Shown here piece after piece: positions 11,585 through 43,127 of a stretch of 44,219 nucleotides of DNA (position 1 is the stretch's first letter; the number at the start of each line of letters is the position of its first letter). The DNA lies in NCBI GenBank assembly GCA_013334925.1, contig JAAXWP010000019.1, forward strand, positions 1 to 44,219. The letters are read 5' to 3'. The DNA is from Chlorobiaceae bacterium (lineage in GTDB: Bacteria; Bacteroidota; Chlorobiia; Chlorobiales; Chlorobiaceae). Under the pieces are notes generated by a model that worked only from the letters and a program-made list of their open reading frames with translations, ran no database searches and had not been told where the DNA came from. The translations under genes and the position numbers were made by a program.

Positions 11585-11601
11585 GCCTCAACGGGTGAGG
11601 C
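11585..11601. terminator. Short stem-loop between convergent cbiR and usher genes
   Basis: GCCTCA (11585-11590) and TGAGGC (11596-11601) flank a five-base loop, starting just after the cbiR stop and overlapping the last codons of the convergent usher gene. The gap between the genes is only four bases. The helix is short and has no T-run, so it is a weak candidate for a bidirectional stop signal. Confidence 0.25.
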
Positions 11602-14272
11602 CATTGGTCAGCGTGCCGGGAGCGCCAGTCGCGGTCACGGACGAAACCTCCCCGATATCGAGGTCGATGCCGTTCAGATAGTCGCCTTTGATGATGACTT
11701 CACGTCCGAGCGTACGACCGACCGGCACTCCGGCGACCGATACCACCCTGATTCGATAGGCGCCTGACAGCAGGCCGTCGGTGCGGTAGTCTCCGAACTC
11801 ATTGCTTCTTGCGCTCGCGGCGACCCGATTCTGTGCATCGAGTACTTCGAGGATGACGTTGCCTATTCCGTTGCCTTTACGGTCGACAACCCGTCCGTCG
11901 ATGCCATACATGGCACGGACAGGAATGTTCACGTTTGTGACCGCTCCGTTTCTGACCTCCACAAGCATACGTTTACGCTCGGCGGACAATTCGATCGGGA
12001 GGTTTTCGGTATCGACCATCACCGTGTAGAGTCCTGGCCTGAGATTGCCGACGAAGAACGACCCGTCGATCTGGCGCTGGTCGAGTCGCCGGCCATCGAG
12101 CAGGATGCTCACGTCGTTGATATCCGATGAGGTTAGTTTCGTATCGCCGTCGATGGCGATCTTTCCTGCAAGTCCGCCGCGAGTCGTGGTGATGGCGCTC
12201 CGGTCGATCGCGAATGGCCTGATGCCGGAAAAACCAAGGTCCCAGCTCAGCGTACAGGCGAAGAAGTGGCGGGACAATGGTGGCATGATGAACTCCGAAT
12301 ACTCGCTGGTCGTGACGAGGTTCTGGGCGAGGGTCATGTTCCAGCTGTACTGCAGGGCGACTCTGAGTCCGGCATTGAAATACCTGATCCATTTTCCGGT
12401 AAACCCGGTCTCCTTTCCTGACCGTGAGGTGCCCAGTTCGACCATATTGAAACGGCTGTTTCTCGGATACCAGTCGAAGTAGGCCGCCACCAGGTTATTT
12501 CCCGTTTTGAACGCGTGTTCATAGAGCACTCTCGCACTCAGGTTGTCCCGCAGGCTCTTGTTCCATTCCGCGGAACCGACACCTGATTCGTGTATGAACC
12601 TGAGGTATGAGGTCGGGGAGAAGGTCTGGTCAATCTCGTAACGGTAGTGGCTGTTTTCATTCGGTACGGCCGAGAGTCTCAGATTGCTCCATGGGGAGAT
12701 ATAGGCTCCGGGGAGCAGGAATCGACGTGTTTCGATCTCATTTTCACGCGTTTTCCTGCCATAGACCAGCAAGGTTGCCTGTTCGATCGGATTGGCGGTG
12801 AATCTGAGCCACTGTTGTGTCTGCTGCTGGGTGCCCGCAACACCGAAGTCATGGTCATTCCATTGTGACAGATAGGAGACTGACCAGCCTTTTCCGTGTC
12901 CATCGACCCGCAGATCGGTTGCATACCGGCTGTTTGCCTGTGTGCCGTAAAGCGAGGTGGCCCAGTTTTTCCCGAGTGACAGAATCGAACCGACGGAATA
13001 TTCACCGGACGCGGAAACGGGGTTGTATTGTGCAGACGCATCGAGTGTGAGCCGGTCGTTCAGGCCATACTGCACCTGTGCATATCCGGTTCCGGAGTCC
13101 GGAGTCGTTTTGTCGAGATCAGTGAGCGGATTTCCGGCACGTCCGAATCCGCTTCGTATGAGCAGCTCCCCACCAGGCAGGCTTCCGTTCATCACCGATT
13201 GGGTATAATCGAGAATCGCGACCGGTTTTTCGGCCGGTGACCGTTCATAGACATACACTTCGGTCCTTCGCAGATCGGCACCCATTCGCACATTCTGGAA
13301 CGCGAACCGTCCGTCGAGCCGGATACGCACTCTCGCCACGATTTTACCATCGAATCGAAGTTCCGCTATGCCCGCAGCCGGACCACTGCCTTCGATGGTG
13401 CGGTACATGTTCCGGTTGAGTGAGACGAAAAGATCGGTTGACGAACGGCCGGAAGTGTCGAGATAATCGAGTATGCTCCGGTTGTTCCACCCGACCTGTA
13501 TGCCGGTGAAGTCATTGTTCACCGATTCGGGGGAGATGAGGTTCGTACCGGTACCGATCCTGATGGCAAATCGGTCATTGAAAGAGGTCCAGTGGTAGCG
13601 GAGCAGCTCCATCTGTTTCGACGGATCTCCTTCAGCGTCGATGTCCCAGACTCCGTTGACAAGACGGCCTCCGGCCTGTATCTGCAGGGAGTTCGAGGAG
13701 AGCCCCTTGAAGTCACGCTGGGCGCCTGCGTCGATCGACAGGAACGACAGTGATCCACCGGGAGCCGAGATGTCGGGCACCGGAGCCGGAAGAGCACCGC
13801 TCTTTTTTGCATCCCTCGCAGGTGACCAGGGGATGTCGAGCGAAGCGGCGAACTGGCGCTGGTCGAATACGGCTTTCACGAAAAATGCCTTGCCAAGTGA
13901 AGAGAAGGAGATGTAGGGCTCCGTTTCGAACGTCTTGAGCTGACTTCTGTCGAACGTGAGGGTACCGACCGTGGTGGAGAACGTTACCGTTTGCTCTTTT
14001 GTGCCAGATGGCTCTTTGAGGCCGCTCTGTCCGATAAAGAGGGCATAGGGTATCCAGTAGTCGCCGGCCGATTGGTAGAGCACCAGATCACCAACGTTTC
14101 TGCGGTTGACGATGAGTCCTGCGGCGAGAGGTTCTTCTCCGCCTTTTGCCGATACGGCGACTGGCTGAACCGTAGTGGCCTCAGCCAGGAGTGGAGATGT
14201 TTCCGGAACGACCTGGACAAGGACAGCGCACAGGCAGGCAATTCGCAGATAGCGTCGGGGATGGCTTCGCAT
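11588..14272 (-). CDS. Outer-membrane usher of a chaperone-usher pilus
   Basis: The product is 894 residues, the size of ushers, with a signal peptide ending near PLLAEA. GLIVNRRNVGDLVLYQSAGDYWIPYALF suggests the N-terminal domain. A long central region of alternating polar and aromatic residues follows, with LPGGELLIRSGFGRAGNP and GYAQVQYGLNDRLTLDASAQY, typical of usher barrels. IDGRVVDRKGNGIGNVILEV near the C-terminus is a carboxypeptidase-regulatory-like beta domain, as in usher C-terminal domains. It would secrete and order pilin subunits delivered by the chaperone gene 24 bases upstream. Similarity is to the divergent CS1/alternate usher groups rather than FimD/PapC, which lowers certainty. 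No sign of breakage. It runs against the B12 genes on both sides. Confidence 0.75.
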   Translation of the reverse strand: MRSHPRRYLRIACLCAVLVQVVPETSPLLAEATTVQPVAVSAKGGEEPLAAGLIVNRRNVGDLVLYQSAGDYWIPYALFIGQSGLKEPSGTKEQTVTFSTTVGTLTFDRSQLKTFETEPYISFSSLGKAFFVKAVFDQRQFAASLDIPWSPARDAKKSGALPAPVPDISAPGGSLSFLSIDAGAQRDFKGLSSNSLQIQAGGRLVNGVWDIDAEGDPSKQMELLRYHWTSFNDRFAIRIGTGTNLISPESVNNDFTGIQVGWNNRSILDYLDTSGRSSTDLFVSLNRNMYRTIEGSGPAAGIAELRFDGKIVARVRIRLDGRFAFQNVRMGADLRRTEVYVYERSPAEKPVAILDYTQSVMNGSLPGGELLIRSGFGRAGNPLTDLDKTTPDSGTGYAQVQYGLNDRLTLDASAQYNPVSASGEYSVGSILSLGKNWATSLYGTQANSRYATDLRVDGHGKGWSVSYLSQWNDHDFGVAGTQQQTQQWLRFTANPIEQATLLVYGRKTRENEIETRRFLLPGAYISPWSNLRLSAVPNENSHYRYEIDQTFSPTSYLRFIHESGVGSAEWNKSLRDNLSARVLYEHAFKTGNNLVAAYFDWYPRNSRFNMVELGTSRSGKETGFTGKWIRYFNAGLRVALQYSWNMTLAQNLVTTSEYSEFIMPPLSRHFFACTLSWDLGFSGIRPFAIDRSAITTTRGGLAGKIAIDGDTKLTSSDINDVSILLDGRRLDQRQIDGSFFVGNLRPGLYTVMVDTENLPIELSAERKRMLVEVRNGAVTNVNIPVRAMYGIDGRVVDRKGNGIGNVILEVLDAQNRVAASARSNEFGDYRTDGLLSGAYRIRVVSVAGVPVGRTLGREVIIKGDYLNGIDLDIGEVSSVTATGAPGTLTNGLTR

Positions 14273-14296
14273 GGAGGAGTATGGAAAGAGCCGGTT

Positions 14297-15133
14297 TCAG
14301 GGAAACACCTTTTCGATAGTCCGGTTGCCGATTTTTCCGGCAAGGGCGATCACAATGCCTTCGCGGCTGCCGGTGATCTCGAGCTTTTCCATGATGGTTC
14401 TGCGATGTCCGGGAAGCACGGGGGTACTGTGCAGAGATCCTGATGCGATAAGGCCGGGTGGTGTGACACCGCTTTTCTGTTTTGCAAGATACTCTTTCAT
14501 GGCTTTGAAGCCGGGGAAGGTTCCCGATTTCCAGATGGTGTAGTCACCGGTCAGGCGGGTATGGATGTTCCCGGTATTGTGGATGACAGCTTTGATGGTC
14601 ATGGCCGGTTTGTCGAACGTCAGGCTTTCCAGATCTGCGGATTCATGCTTCGCACCGCTGACTCCATAAACGGCCATTCCGTAGCGGAACAGTACCTTGA
14701 CGGCACCACCATCGGTATTGGTATTGTCGTCGCCCTCTTCACTCAGGTAGATCATGGCTCTGTGCTCTCCAGGCTCGGGTATGACCGCAGGCCTTACGGA
14801 GTAGCGGATAACCTGGCTTGCTCCGGGTTCGAGCCTGAAGGTCACCGGGCTGATGAGCATCCATCGGTCGAGTGACTGAAGGTCGCCGGGAATGAGTTTT
14901 ACCCGGTTCTGTTCATCGAGCGTCCAGTTGTAGACCTCAACCTTGACGTTGACGGTCTCTTTTTTCAGATTCTGCATCCTGATCGAACCGTTGACCGGCT
15001 TGTTTTCGATCGTGAGCTCGATCATGCTCGGAGAGATCGCGATCTGGCCGGGCGGAGCTTCTGCAGCACGGGCCTGGCTTGAGCCTGCGGTCAGGAGTAA
15101 GGAGAGAATGCCGTGGAGGAGCGTGCGCTTCAT
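14297..15133 (-). CDS. Periplasmic pilus chaperone (PapD-like)
   Basis: The 278-residue protein has a signal peptide (cleavage near ARA-AEAPP) and two immunoglobulin-like domains. The first has IAISPSMIELTIENKPVNGSIRMQN, then VEVYNW, RWMLISPVTFRLEPGASQVIRYSVRP and HRAMIYLSEE, which is the classical order of PapD-like chaperones (strand A1, F1/G1 edge and the R-x-x-I/M-Y-x-x-E strand). The second domain starts near LFRYGMAVYG. It would hold pilin subunits in the periplasm by donor-strand complementation and pass them to the usher. It is slightly longer than the 230-250 residues usual for the group. The gene starts 15 bases after the third pilin-like gene and ends 24 bases before the usher gene, indicating one operon. 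Confidence 0.82.
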   Translation of the reverse strand: MKRTLLHGILSLLLTAGSSQARAAEAPPGQIAISPSMIELTIENKPVNGSIRMQNLKKETVNVKVEVYNWTLDEQNRVKLIPGDLQSLDRWMLISPVTFRLEPGASQVIRYSVRPAVIPEPGEHRAMIYLSEEGDDNTNTDGGAVKVLFRYGMAVYGVSGAKHESADLESLTFDKPAMTIKAVIHNTGNIHTRLTGDYTIWKSGTFPGFKAMKEYLAKQKSGVTPPGLIASGSLHSTPVLPGHRRTIMEKLEITGSREGIVIALAGKIGNRTIEKVFP

Positions 15134-15147
15134 GAGGTCCGGTATGA

Positions 15148-15684
15148 TTATATGATGGTGACGTTGATGGTGACGGTAGTCCCGGTTGAGGTGTAGGTGC
15201 CTGAACGGGATGTGCCTGAGAGGTCGAGGGTCATGTTGGCATAGCCCGAATAGAGCTTGCTGCTGCTGCTGTAACTTATCGAGCTTGTCGTTATCGAGGT
15301 GACGGTCACGTTTGAAACCGTTGTCGATACGCCCGATTTGGCCAGTGTCGGGCGAGTGATGGTGTAGGTCGCGGTTATGTTTCTTTTAGAATTGGTATCT
15401 GAATATGTCCAGAAGAGCAGACCGGTTTTGGTGATGGTTGTCGTACCATCGGTCAGGCTTATGGTTGTTCCTGAAACATCTCCACCGTCGAGCGTCGAAG
15501 TGCCTGACCATCTGGTGTGAGGCTGAGCAGCGGCAAGCCCGAAATCAGCCGCCGTGAGCGTGACCGAAACGTTTTTCCCTGATATTATTGCCGTGTGGGC
15601 AGGGCGCGGAGAAAGTGACAGCAGAGCCAACGTAAGAAGTGGAACGGATGTTAACTGCATGAACCGGCGATAAGTCTTTTTCAT
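15148..15684 (-). CDS. Putative minor or tip pilin subunit
   Basis: The product of 178 residues starts at the ATG at 15684 (MKKTYRRFMQL); an upstream in-frame ATG at 15726 adds 14 residues before a clear signal peptide (VPLLTLALLSLSPRPAHT). The mature part is almost entirely serine, threonine and valine in alternating patterns, predicting beta strands, and ends in TYTSTGTTVTINVTII. That resembles the final strand of chaperone-usher pilins and of the two paralogous pilins upstream. It has no cysteine. Except at the C-terminus it does not resemble the other two subunits, so it may be a tip adhesin, an initiator or an anchor. The position directly before the chaperone gene supports an assembly substrate. 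Assignment rests on context and composition. Confidence 0.6.
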   Translation of the reverse strand: MKKTYRRFMQLTSVPLLTLALLSLSPRPAHTAIISGKNVSVTLTAADFGLAAAQPHTRWSGTSTLDGGDVSGTTISLTDGTTTITKTGLLFWTYSDTNSKRNITATYTITRPTLAKSGVSTTVSNVTVTSITTSSISYSSSSKLYSGYANMTLDLSGTSRSGTYTSTGTTVTINVTII

Positions 15685-15736
15685 GCAGATTCTACCTGTT
15701 CCGTTGCTGGAGATGGGGGAGTTCACGGTTGAAATA

Positions 15737-16357
15737 TTACAGGGTTATGGCCGTAATCGTGATGGTGCCGGTATAGTCACCAGCAAGAGATGTATTTGCG
15801 AAATTCAGGCCCATAAGTACGTCACCCATGGTGGCGTCACCCTTCTGGATGCCGTTCAGATTTGTCGAGATCGAGCTGCTTGCAGACGATGAAGAGGCTC
15901 CATCGACAAGTACCTGGAGCTTGGATACTCCTATGGTCGAAGATGTGGCGCCCTTGACCAGGGTTGATGGCCCGGCCACGCTGACACTCGCTTTGCCTGT
16001 GGCAGAGAAGCCTCGAACTGCCCAGACATTTCTGAGCGTCAGCGTGATATCCGTACCTCTCAGAGCCGAAAGGTCGGCGTCGGAGATGGTGCTTGTCGTC
16101 AGCGCCCCGGATCCGTCAATCGACTGATCGGTACCGCTCAGGTTTGACTGCGAATAGCTGCTGTGCTCGTGACTTTCACCCTGGCCGGCAAGGCCGAGAT
16201 TAATATTGGTGAAATAATCAAGGATGATGACATCCGGAACCGATATGGTGATGGTAGAATATCCGGTGCCTGTCTGGGTTGCAGCCAAAGCTGGTGTTGA
16301 TGGGACAGCTGCCAGCATGGCTGCTGCGAAAGCGAATGCCCGAATCGTCTGTTTCAT
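15737..16357 (-). CDS. Putative pilin subunit B, paralogue of pilin A
   Basis: The 206-residue protein has a signal peptide (MKQTIRAFAFAAAMLAAVPSTPALA) and a mature domain almost collinear with the upstream pilin. It shares VPDVIILDYFTNINLGLAG, WAVRGFS-TGKA, STIGVSKLQV, GIQKG-AT-GDV-MGLNF and the C-terminal GDYTGTITITA. The alternating hydrophobic pattern at both ends fits donor-strand exchange between subunits. It has no cysteines, so the fold lacks the disulphide found in many pilins. The gene follows a strong terminator placed after pilin A, so it is probably expressed at a lower level by read-through or from its own promoter. It is 52 bases ahead of the third subunit gene. Confidence 0.68.
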   Translation of the reverse strand: MKQTIRAFAFAAAMLAAVPSTPALAATQTGTGYSTITISVPDVIILDYFTNINLGLAGQGESHEHSSYSQSNLSGTDQSIDGSGALTTSTISDADLSALRGTDITLTLRNVWAVRGFSATGKASVSVAGPSTLVKGATSSTIGVSKLQVLVDGASSSSASSSISTNLNGIQKGDATMGDVLMGLNFANTSLAGDYTGTITITAITL

Positions 16358-16472
16358 GTGCTGCCATCGTTGTGGTTGAGTTAAATTTAATGATGTTTGG
16401 CGATATTCAAGGGTTTTAAAATGAGAATTGGCGTGATTTTTATTCCCTGATCAATGGCGGCAGGACAATAAA

Positions 16473-16497
16473 AAACCCCGGGTATCAGCCGGGGTTT
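16473..16497 (-). terminator. Rho-independent terminator after pilin A
   Basis: AAACCCCGG (16473-16481) and CCGGGGTTT (16489-16497) form a perfect nine-pair stem with a seven-base loop. Read on the minus strand it is followed by a T-rich tract (TTTTTTATT counting the end of the stem). It lies 48 bases after the pilin A stop codon and 116 bases before the pilin B start, so it separates the major pilin from the rest of the cluster. Confidence 0.85.
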
Positions 16498-16544
16498 CCG
16501 ATGACGGGTCGCATACTTATTTACTCAAACCGCATCACCAGGTA

Positions 16545-17198
16545 CTACATTGTTACGGCAGTGATCGTGATGGTACCGGTATAGTCACCCGATACCGAGG
16601 TGTTCGTGAAGTTCAGCCCCATCACCACGTCACCCAGGGTAGCGTTGCCCTTCTGGATACCCTTCAGATCAGTCGTGATCGACTTGCTGGCCGTGCCACC
16701 ACTCACCTGAACCTGCAGTTTCGATACACCGATCGTTGAGCTGCTCGAAGCCTTCTTCAGGGCGCTGTCTCCGTCGATGCTCACCGTCGCCTTGCCCGTG
16801 CTGGAGAAGCCGCGCACTGCCCAGGCGTTTTTGAGCGTCAGGTTGACATCAGATCCCTTCAGGGCTGCCAGCTTTGCATCGGTGAGGGTGTCGGTGGTCA
16901 GTTCGCCGGTGCCGTCGATCGTCTGGTCACCACCATTGAGGTTCGACTGCTCATAGGAGGAGTGATCGTAACTGTCAGTCTGGCCGGCAAGACCGAGATT
17001 GATATTGGTGAAGTAGTCGAGGATGATCACATCCGGAACCTTCATGGTGACGGTTGAGCTGCCGGTCGTCTGGGTTGACGGCGCCACGACGCTTGCCGAT
17101 GCCTTCGAGGGGGTTGCTGCTGCGATAAGGGCTGCGCCAAGAGCGACGGTGCGGAGGAGGGGATTCTTGAACATGGTCGTAAAGTTTTGGGGTTTCAT
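16545..17198 (-). CDS. Putative major pilin subunit A
   Basis: The product is 217 residues when started at the ATG at 17198, which has AGGA eight bases upstream; an upstream in-frame ATG at 17243 and an internal one at 17174 lack a ribosome site. A signal peptide ends near ATPSKASA. The mature protein is rich in serine, threonine and glycine, contains no cysteine, and ends in SGDYTGTITITAVTM, a terminal strand pattern seen in chaperone-usher pilins. VPDVIILDYFTNINLGLAG near its N-terminus is shared with pilin B. The gene stands first in the cluster with its own terminator and a sigma-54-like promoter, features expected of an abundant structural subunit. I know of no named family; pilin function is inferred from the chaperone and usher downstream. 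Confidence 0.68.
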   Translation of the reverse strand: MKPQNFTTMFKNPLLRTVALGAALIAAATPSKASASVVAPSTQTTGSSTVTMKVPDVIILDYFTNINLGLAGQTDSYDHSSYEQSNLNGGDQTIDGTGELTTDTLTDAKLAALKGSDVNLTLKNAWAVRGFSSTGKATVSIDGDSALKKASSSSTIGVSKLQVQVSGGTASKSITTDLKGIQKGNATLGDVVMGLNFTNTSVSGDYTGTITITAVTM

Positions 17199-17481
17199 TC
17201 CTGTTTTCCTGCCAGGCTTTCCCGGCCTTCTACGACTATTCACTCAAATCCCGTGCCAGAATATGTTCGTTCGTTTTTTGTTTTTTCTGCCCAATGGCTT
17301 AACATCAAATCCTGGTATGAGTTGTCTCAATGTTGGTGTTGCTTGTCTGTTTTATCTTTTTCGTCATGGAGTCTGATCTGGTGTAATAGCTTGCGGTCGT
17401 CTCATGGGTGATTTCTCAGCTTGAGACAGAATGCTGCTTTTTACCCTGTTTTCGTGATCAACCATCAAAAGCCAAATCCCG
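17199..17481. other. Divergent intergenic region between pilin A and cobU
   Basis: These 283 bases lie between divergent pilin A and cobU. They hold the sigma-54-like element, a T-rich central stretch and the inverted repeat GTCTCA/TGAGAC (17399-17427), with a further GTCTCA copy near 17324. I find no B12 box, so cobU-cobT-hydrolase-cobS do not seem to have their own cobalamin riboswitch. Confidence 0.5.
17243..17258 (-). promoter_or_regulatory. Sigma-54-like promoter for pilin A
   Basis: On the minus strand the sequence reads TGGCACG, four bases, then TTGAG. This matches the RpoN consensus TGGCACG-N4-TTGCW except that the C of the -12 GC is A. It lies about 45 bases before the pilin A ATG. 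The -12 mismatch is at a normally invariant position, so the call is tentative. An inverted repeat GTCTCA/TGAGAC at 17399-17427, about 140 bases upstream, could be an activator site. Confidence 0.35.
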
Positions 17482-29988: not shown

Positions 29989-30921
29989 TCAGCTGGCGCA
30001 GGAGTAGCTCGGGTTGGATGCCTTGCGATCGTAGGGAAGTACCTTGACCCTGCAGTGATCCAGGCTGAACGACTGCTGATAGTCTTCGAACAGAATCCGT
30101 CCGCTGCTGAAACGTACTTTCAGCGGAACAACGACCTTTCGCTCCGTACCGCACGGATTGTCCTTCAGACCGGGCGAGAAGCGATGCCCTTCACCGAGCT
30201 GATCGATGATCACGAACTCTTCAGCGACGGTCTTGAAGGCCAGGACCGAACCTTCCGGAGTGAACTGCAGTGAATTCAGGTCGCCGTGGATTCCCTGGGG
30301 GTCATTGTCATAGGCCGTGATCAGACCGACTGGCGTTTCCACTCTGGTGACACCAGCCGGCTCGATGGAGCGCAACGCACCATCTTCGTAAAACGCGACG
30401 CCGGTTCTGACTCTGAACTCGCCCGATGTCGTGTTGATGGTAAGCAGTTCGCCCGGCCAGAGGGTAATGCTTTTCAGTGCACCGCTGTCATAGAACTGAA
30501 GACCGATGAACTTTGCCGTCAATGCTCCTGCAGGCGTATCGATCGTGATCGATTCTGCCAGATCGTACTCGTTTTTTGACGTCCAGTATCCGGTGAGCCT
30601 TCCGTCAAGAGGGAAGATACGCTTGATGCTGCCGGACTCATGAAAGGTGACCAGCTCTGCGGGTACCTTGCCGACAGGAGTATCGAGAAGTGTCTGCTCC
30701 TGCAGGGCTATCGATTTGAGAGCGCCGGACTTGTAGAAGTAGAGCGGTTTTACCGGCCTGCGGCCCATGTCTTCAGCAAAATGCTGCGGCACAAGCTCTC
30801 CATAAGGAGTTTTCAGGATATTTGCCTTGCTGACGAGGCATCCGTCGGTCTTTCCGTTTGAAAAGAGCGTCCTGAACTCGACACCATCGAGTGTTCCGTA
30901 TGTGGTGGTAAAACTGGTCAT
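29989..30921 (-). CDS. MORN-like repeat protein of unknown function
   Basis: The 310-residue protein has at least five copies of a repeat with the core (L/V)-x-F-(Y/H/T)-x-(S/D/E)-G-(A/S)-(L/I/V)-(K/R)-S-I, e.g. FYKSGALKSI, FHESGSIKRI, FYDSGALKSI and FYEDGALRSI. The pattern resembles the MORN/YwqK-type beta-hairpin repeat. Copies alternate with conserved TP-x-G strands (DTPVGKVPAEL, DTPAGALTAKF, ETPVGLITAY). It has no signal peptide. A distinct C-terminal part carries three cysteines (NPCGTER, DHCRVKV and SYSCAS at the very end). No function is known to me. The gene is monocistronic and a short direct repeat lies in its upstream region. Confidence 0.75.
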   Translation of the reverse strand: MTSFTTTYGTLDGVEFRTLFSNGKTDGCLVSKANILKTPYGELVPQHFAEDMGRRPVKPLYFYKSGALKSIALQEQTLLDTPVGKVPAELVTFHESGSIKRIFPLDGRLTGYWTSKNEYDLAESITIDTPAGALTAKFIGLQFYDSGALKSITLWPGELLTINTTSGEFRVRTGVAFYEDGALRSIEPAGVTRVETPVGLITAYDNDPQGIHGDLNSLQFTPEGSVLAFKTVAEEFVIIDQLGEGHRFSPGLKDNPCGTERKVVVPLKVRFSSGRILFEDYQQSFSLDHCRVKVLPYDRKASNPSYSCAS

Positions 30922-41238: not shown

Positions 41239-41790
41239 GGTCGTACGGATCTGTGATTGTCATTCAGGCTTTACGTCAGTCGCAAAAGCAAGTGTAATGA
41301 TCGATTCAATTTCGGGGCCGTTGAGCATCACCTGAAGGGGTGATCTGGCCTGCCGTCCTCGTTGTGATGAACGAAGAAGGGTACTGCTGGGATTGACGGG
41401 CTATTTCTGCGGGGAATGGCTCCTCGACCGTCAGAGAGTTGGCCGGAGACAGACTGACACACTCCGGATCTTTCAATTCATGAATTATACGGCTTTTTTT
41501 TCAAACTTCTGAGGCGTTTGCTCTGTTTTTTAAAGAGTCGGGAAAGCTGTCGCCTGTTACCACGTCATGGCTTTGGCTGCTTGAACTGTCGATCAATGGA
41601 TGAGCAATGGTACTCCCGGATTTCACGCTGATCACGACTTGTCGGAAGAAGAATCCATAAGTCGATGTTTAACAACAAGATGGATTTTTCATTACGCTAC
41701 GAGCCATTTAGTGTGACACCGCTTTGTTCGGGAATATATCACGAGCTGCAATGCCGGGATTGCCAGAAGCAAACCCTTCGCCGGTGTGTT
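41239..41790. other. Intergenic region of 552 bases without a recognised gene
   Basis: It lies between leftward rlmI and the leftward SRPBCC gene. It holds a 12-base palindrome AATTCATGAATT at 41475-41486, a T-rich stretch just after it, a small stem ATCACC/GGTGAT (41327-41344) and no convincing coding sequence. It could carry a promoter for the SRPBCC gene or an unrecognised RNA. Confidence 0.4.
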
Positions 41791-42975
41791 TTACAGATCC
41801 GTCACGTAGAAACAGGCGAATTTCAGATAGCTGGTTTCCGGCATCGAGAGCAGTATCGGGTGATCAGGCGGCTGAGAGTTCCGGCAGATGAGACGGAGGT
41901 GCTTGCCTGCATGCATGGCGCCGAGATGGACCGCTGCGAGGAAATCCTCTTCCGAAACGTGATGGGAGCACGACGCGGTAGCCAGGAAGCCTCCGTTTCT
42001 GACAAGCTGCAGACCCATTCTGTTGAGCTTGGTATACGCCTTGAGCGCCGTAGGTACCGTTTTGCGGCTTTTGGTGAAACTCGGCGGGTCGAGAATCACC
42101 AGGTCGAACGAGCGCTGCTCCTGTTTGAGTTTCGAAAGTGCTTCGAAAGCGTCCGATGCGACGATGGAGAAGTTGCCGAGATTGTTCATGCGGGCATTCT
42201 GTTCGGCTCGCTGCAATGCCTCCTGCGAGATGTCCACCATGGTCGTAGAGCGTGCACCGGCGAACATGGCGTTAAGTGCGAATCCGCCGTCGTTGGTGTA
42301 GACGTCGAGCACGTCGGCATCGGCCGAATACTTGCGGACGATCCTCCGGTTTTCGCGCTGATCGAGGAAGAACCCGGTTTTCTGTCCTTCGAGGATGTTC
42401 ACCCGGTAGCTGATGCCTCCATCAAATATGACCTGTTGCGCATCTTCAGGTTTTCCGGTGATCATCTCCTTGTACAGGGGCAATCCCTCGAGTTCGCGAA
42501 GAGGCGATTCGTTCCGGATCACGATCGCGTTCGGCTTGAACAGCTCGGTCAGAACTTCGGTGATCAGAGGCAGGTGCCTGTCCATACCTGCCGAAAAAGA
42601 CTGCAGGACGATGGCCTTGTCGAACCGGTCGATCACCAGGCCGGGAAGTCCGTCGGATTCACCGTGCACGAGCCTCCAGGCGTTGGTTTCCGTTGCCGGA
42701 TAGAGTTTCTCCCTGAGCTGCAGCGCTTCGCTGATCTTGCTGCGGAAAAATTCACGGTCGGGCTGCTGATCGTTCCTGGTCAGAAGCCGGAATGCGATCA
42801 GCGACTGGGGGTTGAAGAAACCGGTGCCGAGAAGCCTGCCGTCATGGGTGAAAAGCTGTACCGTTTCTCCTGCCGCGATGTTGCGGGGGACTTCCCGGAG
42901 CTCGTTGCTGAAAACCCAGAGGTGTCCGCTGATCAGTCTTCGATGCTCCTTTGGTTTGAGATACAGTGCCTGCAT
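41791..42975 (-). CDS. rlmI: Class I SAM-dependent rRNA methyltransferase RlmI-like
   Basis: The 394-residue protein has a PUA-type N-terminus ([21 protein letters not shown]), a linker, and a C-terminal Rossmann methyltransferase domain with [16 protein letters not shown] (SAM-binding loop), [20 protein letters not shown] and the catalytic region [14 protein letters not shown], followed by [14 protein letters not shown]. This arrangement matches RlmI (YccW), which makes 5-methylcytidine at position 1962 of 23S rRNA. A large plus-strand frame over the same region is its antisense shadow. Confidence 0.9.
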
Positions 42976-43127
42976 GAATGAAAAACTCCCCGGATCGTGT
43001 TTTGATGACGCAATGATTTGCTGTAAAATAACATTTCAGAACAATCGGGCCCTATACGGTATGCAGAATGTTTGTGTTATGCCGTCGAGGGCTACTGAAC
43101 CATGAAGAACAGGAGGATGATACGCTG

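Follow-up and report, generated by a model that had tools for sequence, protein, structure and literature searches.

A conserved operon in Chlorobiaceae

A 44,219-nucleotide (nt) contig of a Chlorobiaceae bacterium (JAAXWP010000019.1 of assembly GCA_013334925.1; the whole stretch is referred to here as the window) carries a chaperone-usher operon of five open reading frames (ORFs) on its minus strand. Read 5' to 3', these encode pilin A (16545-17198; ATG start, with the ORF open to a GTG at 17243), pilin B (15737-16357; 206 amino acids, aa), a single-domain, beta-rich subunit C (15148-15684; ATG start, with the ORF open to a GTG at 15726), a PapD-like periplasmic chaperone (14297-15133; 278 aa) and an outer-membrane usher (11588-14272; 894 aa), separated in the same order by gaps of 187, 10, 14 and 24 nt. 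All five proteins begin with segments that resemble signal peptides on inspection. A preliminary description of the contig had placed a leftward cluster of two related pilins, a third subunit, a PapD-like chaperone and an usher at this position, and each of these ORFs is present. The operon most probably builds a thin adhesive pilus via the chaperone-usher pathway and represents a subfamily, specific to Chlorobiaceae, of a broader branch that has been overlooked and is termed here DUF4402-type, a reading to which we assign a probability of a little under nine in ten.

The gene unit is conserved at 30 further loci, where usher identities range from 33 to 70%, and its conservation is therefore far beyond chance. 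Full-length ushers occur in 28 of approximately 81 Chlorobiaceae genomes examined, and a search with the usher profile found none outside this family among 394 genomes of the phylum; about 100 further weak matches across the phylum covered nothing but the CarboxypepD_reg domain and were disregarded. All Chlorobiaceae usher loci that were read, other than those cut by contig ends, have the unit of pilin(s), subunit C, chaperone and usher. At all uncut loci of the relatives the chaperone gene adjoins the usher, and usher homologues lacking pilin-like neighbors, which the preliminary description had named as evidence that would speak against a fiber, were not seen. An operon has between 1 and 5 pilins, while subunit C is present, as a rule, in one copy. 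In one relative (L089:7009-9795; G264:C28) a stop codon interrupts the usher gene shortly before its midpoint, which reflects either decay of the gene or a mistake in sequencing.

Usher, chaperone and pilin subunits

The usher escapes the family libraries. None of 21 usher family members matches Usher (PF00577), PapC_N (PF13954), PapC_C (PF13953), CooC_C or TcfC, the only Pfam match being CarboxypepD_reg on the last domain, and single-sequence searches of the usher and pilins against Pfam, NCBIfam, PHROGs and the PDB returned nothing beyond this domain. FimD (classical) and EcpC (alternative) served as positive controls for the domain tests, and EcpC was likewise missed by PF00577 and has a C-terminal domain resembling CarboxypepD_reg, so that the absence of the usher from PF00577 proves nothing by itself. 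These two features would fit an operon of the alternative (alpha, CS1/Ecp) pathway, as would the best structural match of the pilin model, which is to CfaB (see below). However, PF15976 and PF16967 are unmatched in the 21 ushers, and the alpha profile matches the ushers, chaperones and pilins at 1.7%, 3.3% and 0.6%, respectively, making membership in this pathway very improbable.

An AlphaFold2 model of the usher (21 sequences, pLDDT 76.7, pTM 0.59) predicts the FimD/PapC plan. In the model, an N-terminal domain (residues 47-146; 13835-14134) precedes a barrel of some 24-26 strands (residues 174-263 and 370-681; 12230-13753) that holds a plug-like domain (residues 290-355; 13208-13405), and the chain ends in two beta-sandwich C-terminal domains (residues 699-787 and 789-861; 11690-12178), the second of which scores as CarboxypepD_reg. 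The plug-like domain is inserted after the sixth barrel strand, as expected for FimD and PapC, with some 19-20 strands following it. The predicted usher thus combines the N-terminal domain, the plugged barrel of about 24 strands and the two C-terminal domains characteristic of chaperone-usher ushers. When the model was searched with Foldseek, the first 17 PDB matches were all FimD or PapC, ahead of any other barrel (E-values of 3.6e-24 to 2.9e-10, approximately 11% identity, mostly near full length). The TM-scores of 0.3-0.55 are expected, because the relative placement of the domains in the model is uncertain.

The chaperone is recognizable through its motif residues, which were mapped to CsuC numbering through the archaic profile, with residue roles taken from PMC4654587. 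PapD_N matches 16 of the 20 chaperone family members (best E-value 8e-8). P96 corresponds to Pro59, the sole residue invariant across the whole chaperone superfamily (PMC4654587), and is kept in all 20 members; R125 corresponds to Arg89, the most characteristic feature among the non-classical chaperones (PMC4654587), and is kept in 18 (the others have K in one case and H in one); and R193, the equivalent of Arg174, occurs in all 20. Residues V145, V147, F149 and Y151 align with V110, F112, M114 and Y116 of the CsuC donor strand and are hydrophobic in most members. The invariant proline and the alternating hydrophobic G1 donor strand of a PapD-like chaperone can thus both be read from the sequence, and by its residues the protein is of the non-classical (archaic-like) type, with a carboxylate anchor that appears to be modified.

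Pilins A and B show 64% identity and share VPDVIILDYFTNINLGLAG exactly. Pilin A is probably the main shaft subunit, or major pilin. The model of pilin B (29 sequences, pLDDT 73.8) has a beta-rich ordered part, probably an incomplete beta-sandwich, and, after the signal peptide, an extended N-terminal segment of donor-strand-like character. Most of its top 50 Foldseek matches in the PDB are chaperone-usher pilins of the classical, archaic and alternative classes, the best being CfaB (top), FimA, FimG, CsuA/B, CsuE, PapA and PapE, and the model makes it likely that the pilins have the missing-strand groove of an incomplete Ig-like fold. The C-terminal strand of the pilins alternates, with a glycine 13-16 residues before the C terminus in all 29 family members. 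Subunit C falls in the pilin superfamily (profile match probability of 96%). Nearly all relatives have it as a single copy in each operon, and its N-terminal segment is slightly shorter than that of the pilins, which hints that it may possibly be a terminal subunit.

The preliminary description had emphasized that the subunits are free of cysteine. This is true of pilins A and B and of the likely mature subunit C, whose single cysteine lies upstream of the likely ATG start, but the weight given to it was too great, as the pilins of the relatives and the DUF4402 pilins have a few scattered cysteines with no conserved pair, and the feature is not diagnostic. The identification of the cluster as a chaperone-usher fiber system, on the other hand, is supported by the usher fold, the motif residues of the chaperone, the pilin model and the 30 conserved neighborhoods. 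The tentative assignment of the lineage to Chlorobiaceae in that description is likewise supported, the relatives belonging to this family.

Relation to DUF4402-type operons and to the known classes

A second system has the same type of unit, in which DUF4402 pilins (E-values to 7e-31) are combined with a PapD-like chaperone and with a protein that is mostly 850-1270 aa long. It occurs in 14 other Chlorobiaceae genomes and in other Bacteroidota families, and it was compared at 24 Bacteroidota loci (L078-L081 and L150-L169) and on five Proteobacterial plasmids (L170-L174). The chaperone lies beside the usher at 23 of the Bacteroidota loci, the remaining one being cut by a contig end, and DUF4402-like pilins lie near the chaperone and/or usher at 22, with a contig fragment as one of the exceptions. 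All five plasmids, from two Polaromonas, Sphingopyxis, Novosphingobium and Pseudoalteromonas, carry the unit, annotated as DUF4402, molecular chaperone, and carboxypeptidase-like regulatory domain protein or hypothetical protein. Many of the Bacteroidota ushers of this type (L081, L162, L165, L166 and similar) have C-terminal extensions, some with TPR-like repeats, unlike known ushers.

The DUF4402-type operon at L078:803-8949 occupies the chromosomal spot of the window operon, beside genes for a TIM-barrel protein and an ABC-ATPase, and DUF4402-type operons of other Chlorobiaceae (L150, L152-L154 and L078) lie at the same site beside cobalamin genes. Since operons of both kinds are found at this position, one chromosomal site seems to swap pilus types.

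Single-sequence hhalign of the usher against FimD or EcpC was uninformative, as was FimD against EcpC, and clade profiles were therefore built for the comparison of classes. The window ushers match the DUF4402-type ushers over their full length at 99.6% (score 213) and the archaic ushers at 96.6% (score 92), compared with 1.7% for the alternative and 0.7% for the classical ushers; TonB receptors, included as a negative control, gave 1.6%. The match to the DUF4402-type ushers is still 96.5% when the C-terminal domains are left out. A direct comparison with classical ushers proved unstable, as the match was 89.7% to a profile of eight K-12 ushers with EcpC among them and 0.7% to one of seven that lacked EcpC, and it was not used as evidence.

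These results bear on the possibility that the operon is simply a drifted form of an ordinary archaic (sigma) system such as the Csu or spore-coat-U pili. The chaperone carries the archaic arginines and its profile is nearly as close to the archaic profile (98.3%) as to the DUF4402-type profile (98.8%), and the usher matches the archaic ushers far above the classical or alternative ones. Against this, equal-sized profiles of five sequences always place the usher nearer to the DUF4402-type (scores of 112-174) than to the archaic ushers (76-97), PF00577 does not find the usher, no two-domain tip gene follows it, and the pilins neither match spore-coat-U (5.4%) nor have the invariant cysteines of that family. 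A drifted archaic system is thus unlikely, and placement within the DUF4402-type branch is preferred.

The DUF4402-type ushers themselves match the archaic ushers at 98.3% (score 134) and the classical ushers at 97.7% (score 117), while the alternative and classical ushers match one another at 97.2% (score 100) and the archaic and classical ushers align with a score of 410. Because their profile scores are comparable, the DUF4402-type branch appears to be roughly as remote as the alternative class. On this ground we lean slightly towards a broader proposal, in which the operon of the window and those of the DUF4402 type would together form a fourth major chaperone-usher class, its distance from the classical and archaic systems being similar to that of the alternative class. 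Such a class would be widespread in Bacteroidota and on Proteobacterial plasmids, and its Chlorobiaceae branch would assemble cysteine-free pili using a modified carboxylate anchor. The claim of a new pilus type made in the preliminary description holds insofar as the subunits are not FimA, PapA, SCPU or CS1 by sequence, but the system is better described as a divergent branch related to the DUF4402-type systems, with an archaic-like chaperone.

Each of the known systems shares some features with the window operon. The DUF4402-type operons have the same gene order, with pilin(s) followed by chaperone and usher, and the same CarboxypepD_reg-like end of the usher; the window operon differs in its additional subunit C, in a proline in place of the chaperone tyrosine, in an usher without a C-terminal extension and in pilins that lack a penultimate tyrosine and fall below the DUF4402 cut-off (PF14352 matches 4 of 29 window-family pilins at E<1, the best at 0.0039). 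With the archaic CsuA/B-CsuC-CsuD system it shares the equivalents of chaperone Pro59, Arg89 and Arg174 and a donor strand of archaic register, but not a CsuE-like tip gene, the Tyr196 equivalent, an usher found by PF00577 or pilins of the spore-coat-U type with their invariant cysteines. The classical FimD-FimC-FimA and PapC-PapD systems resemble it in usher fold and domain layout and in the pilin fold, which matches FimA, FimG, PapA and PapE; at about 11% identity, however, the window system has no PapC_N, Usher or PapC_C, pilin disulfide, penultimate tyrosine or two-domain adhesin. The alternative Ecp/CS1 systems also have an usher missed by PF00577, its C-terminus CarboxypepD_reg-like, and include the top pilin fold match, CfaB, whereas the window usher lacks CooC_C and TcfC and the profile comparisons remain below 4%. 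Classical and alternative systems have been listed in beta- and gamma-proteobacteria, and archaic systems also in alpha- and delta-proteobacteria, Cyanobacteria and Deinococcus-Thermus (PMC4654587).

Several observations weigh against a pilus of the DUF4402-type branch. The pilin B model is only moderately confident, with residues 60-97 at a pLDDT <50, and its best PDB match has an E-value of 3.6e-3, none reaching 1e-3 or being significant by itself. The penultimate tyrosine of classical and DUF4402 pilins is a threonine in 25 of the 29 pilins, the equivalent of chaperone Tyr196 is a proline (Pro238) in all 20 members, and no two-domain tip adhesin is encoded in the operon. The match of the pilins to DUF4402 (hhalign, 90.8%) lies mostly in the C-terminal half, and the class comparison consists of profile-profile alignments of clade profiles (hhalign), for which single-pair E-values are nominal.

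The missing adhesin, the variation from 1 to 5 subunits per operon and the fact that the system is known here from its genes, with the fiber itself inferred, would also fit an usher-like pore through which individual Ig-like proteins are exported or displayed, giving a coat or a layer resembling a capsule but no polymerized fiber. Yet alternation is retained in both the N-terminal segment and the C-terminal strand of the pilins, in keeping with polymerization by strand exchange, and the capsule-like fibers of the F1 type are chaperone-usher polymers too; export of single proteins is accordingly quite unlikely, and a polymerized pilus remains the favored product.

Assembly of this pilus would begin with transport of the subunits across the inner membrane by Sec, after which the periplasmic chaperone would lend its hydrophobic G1 strand to each incomplete Ig-like subunit and its two arginines would grip the C-terminal carboxylate of the subunit. 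The N-terminal domain of the usher may then receive the chaperone-subunit complex, and opening of the plug would allow export, with the alternating N-terminal strand of the incoming subunit (consensus ...GTxxVxVxVPxxIIL) displacing the chaperone strand from the previous subunit. Pilin A would form the main shaft and pilin B would be a second shaft subunit, with subunit C possibly terminal, and the finished fiber may serve in adhesion or biofilm formation.

The branch is recognized by no library or paper within our search, from which subscription papers and preprints were excluded. Within the same scope no description was found of DUF4402 (PF14352) operons as chaperone-usher systems, nor of such systems in Chlorobi or Bacteroidota, though an earlier description is possible. 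The locus and the DUF4402 operons extend the chaperone-usher pathway to Bacteroidota, including the green sulfur bacteria, beyond the distribution listed in PMC4654587. They suggest that the DUF4402 proteins likely act as pilins, and they assign an usher role to a group of proteins annotated with a 'carboxypeptidase-like regulatory domain'. The system is open to direct testing in culturable Chlorobiaceae, and its pilins without a disulfide and its chaperone without the anchoring tyrosine constitute a natural experiment.

The intergenic hairpin and additional pilin copies

The 187-nt gap between pilins A and B contains a hairpin resembling a terminator or attenuator (16471-16499, minus strand), GGAAACCCCGG-CTGATAC-CCGGGGTTTTT followed by a T-rich tail, which was equaled in none of 100 shuffles. 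A terminator-like hairpin after the first pilin is a usual means of making more of that pilin. Similar hairpins occur in only two other pilin gaps of the relatives, most of which lack it; a general terminator scan did not list the hairpin, and the promoter and terminator scans gave no more than chance.

Elsewhere in the window, two long ORFs (41665-42981 on the plus strand and 29989-30921 on the minus strand) have no Pfam match at an E-value of 1e-5. Elsewhere in the genome, an ~80-aa protein (motif VDVEVEGEPAKGLRYKF ... VIELW) is encoded downstream of three orphan pilins (L186:3311-3568, L187:4246-4500 and L190:3746-3994); with 10 copies in the genome and a genus-wide distribution that includes genomes without the usher, it was not linked to the pilus. 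The same genome also has, well away from the usher operon, an intact orphan pilin (L186:4215-4898; G000:C99:109217-109840) and a second, nearly identical pilin A broken between two contig ends (the ends of L188 and L187; G000:C63 and C1), and these genes may represent a reservoir of pilins or a recent duplication.

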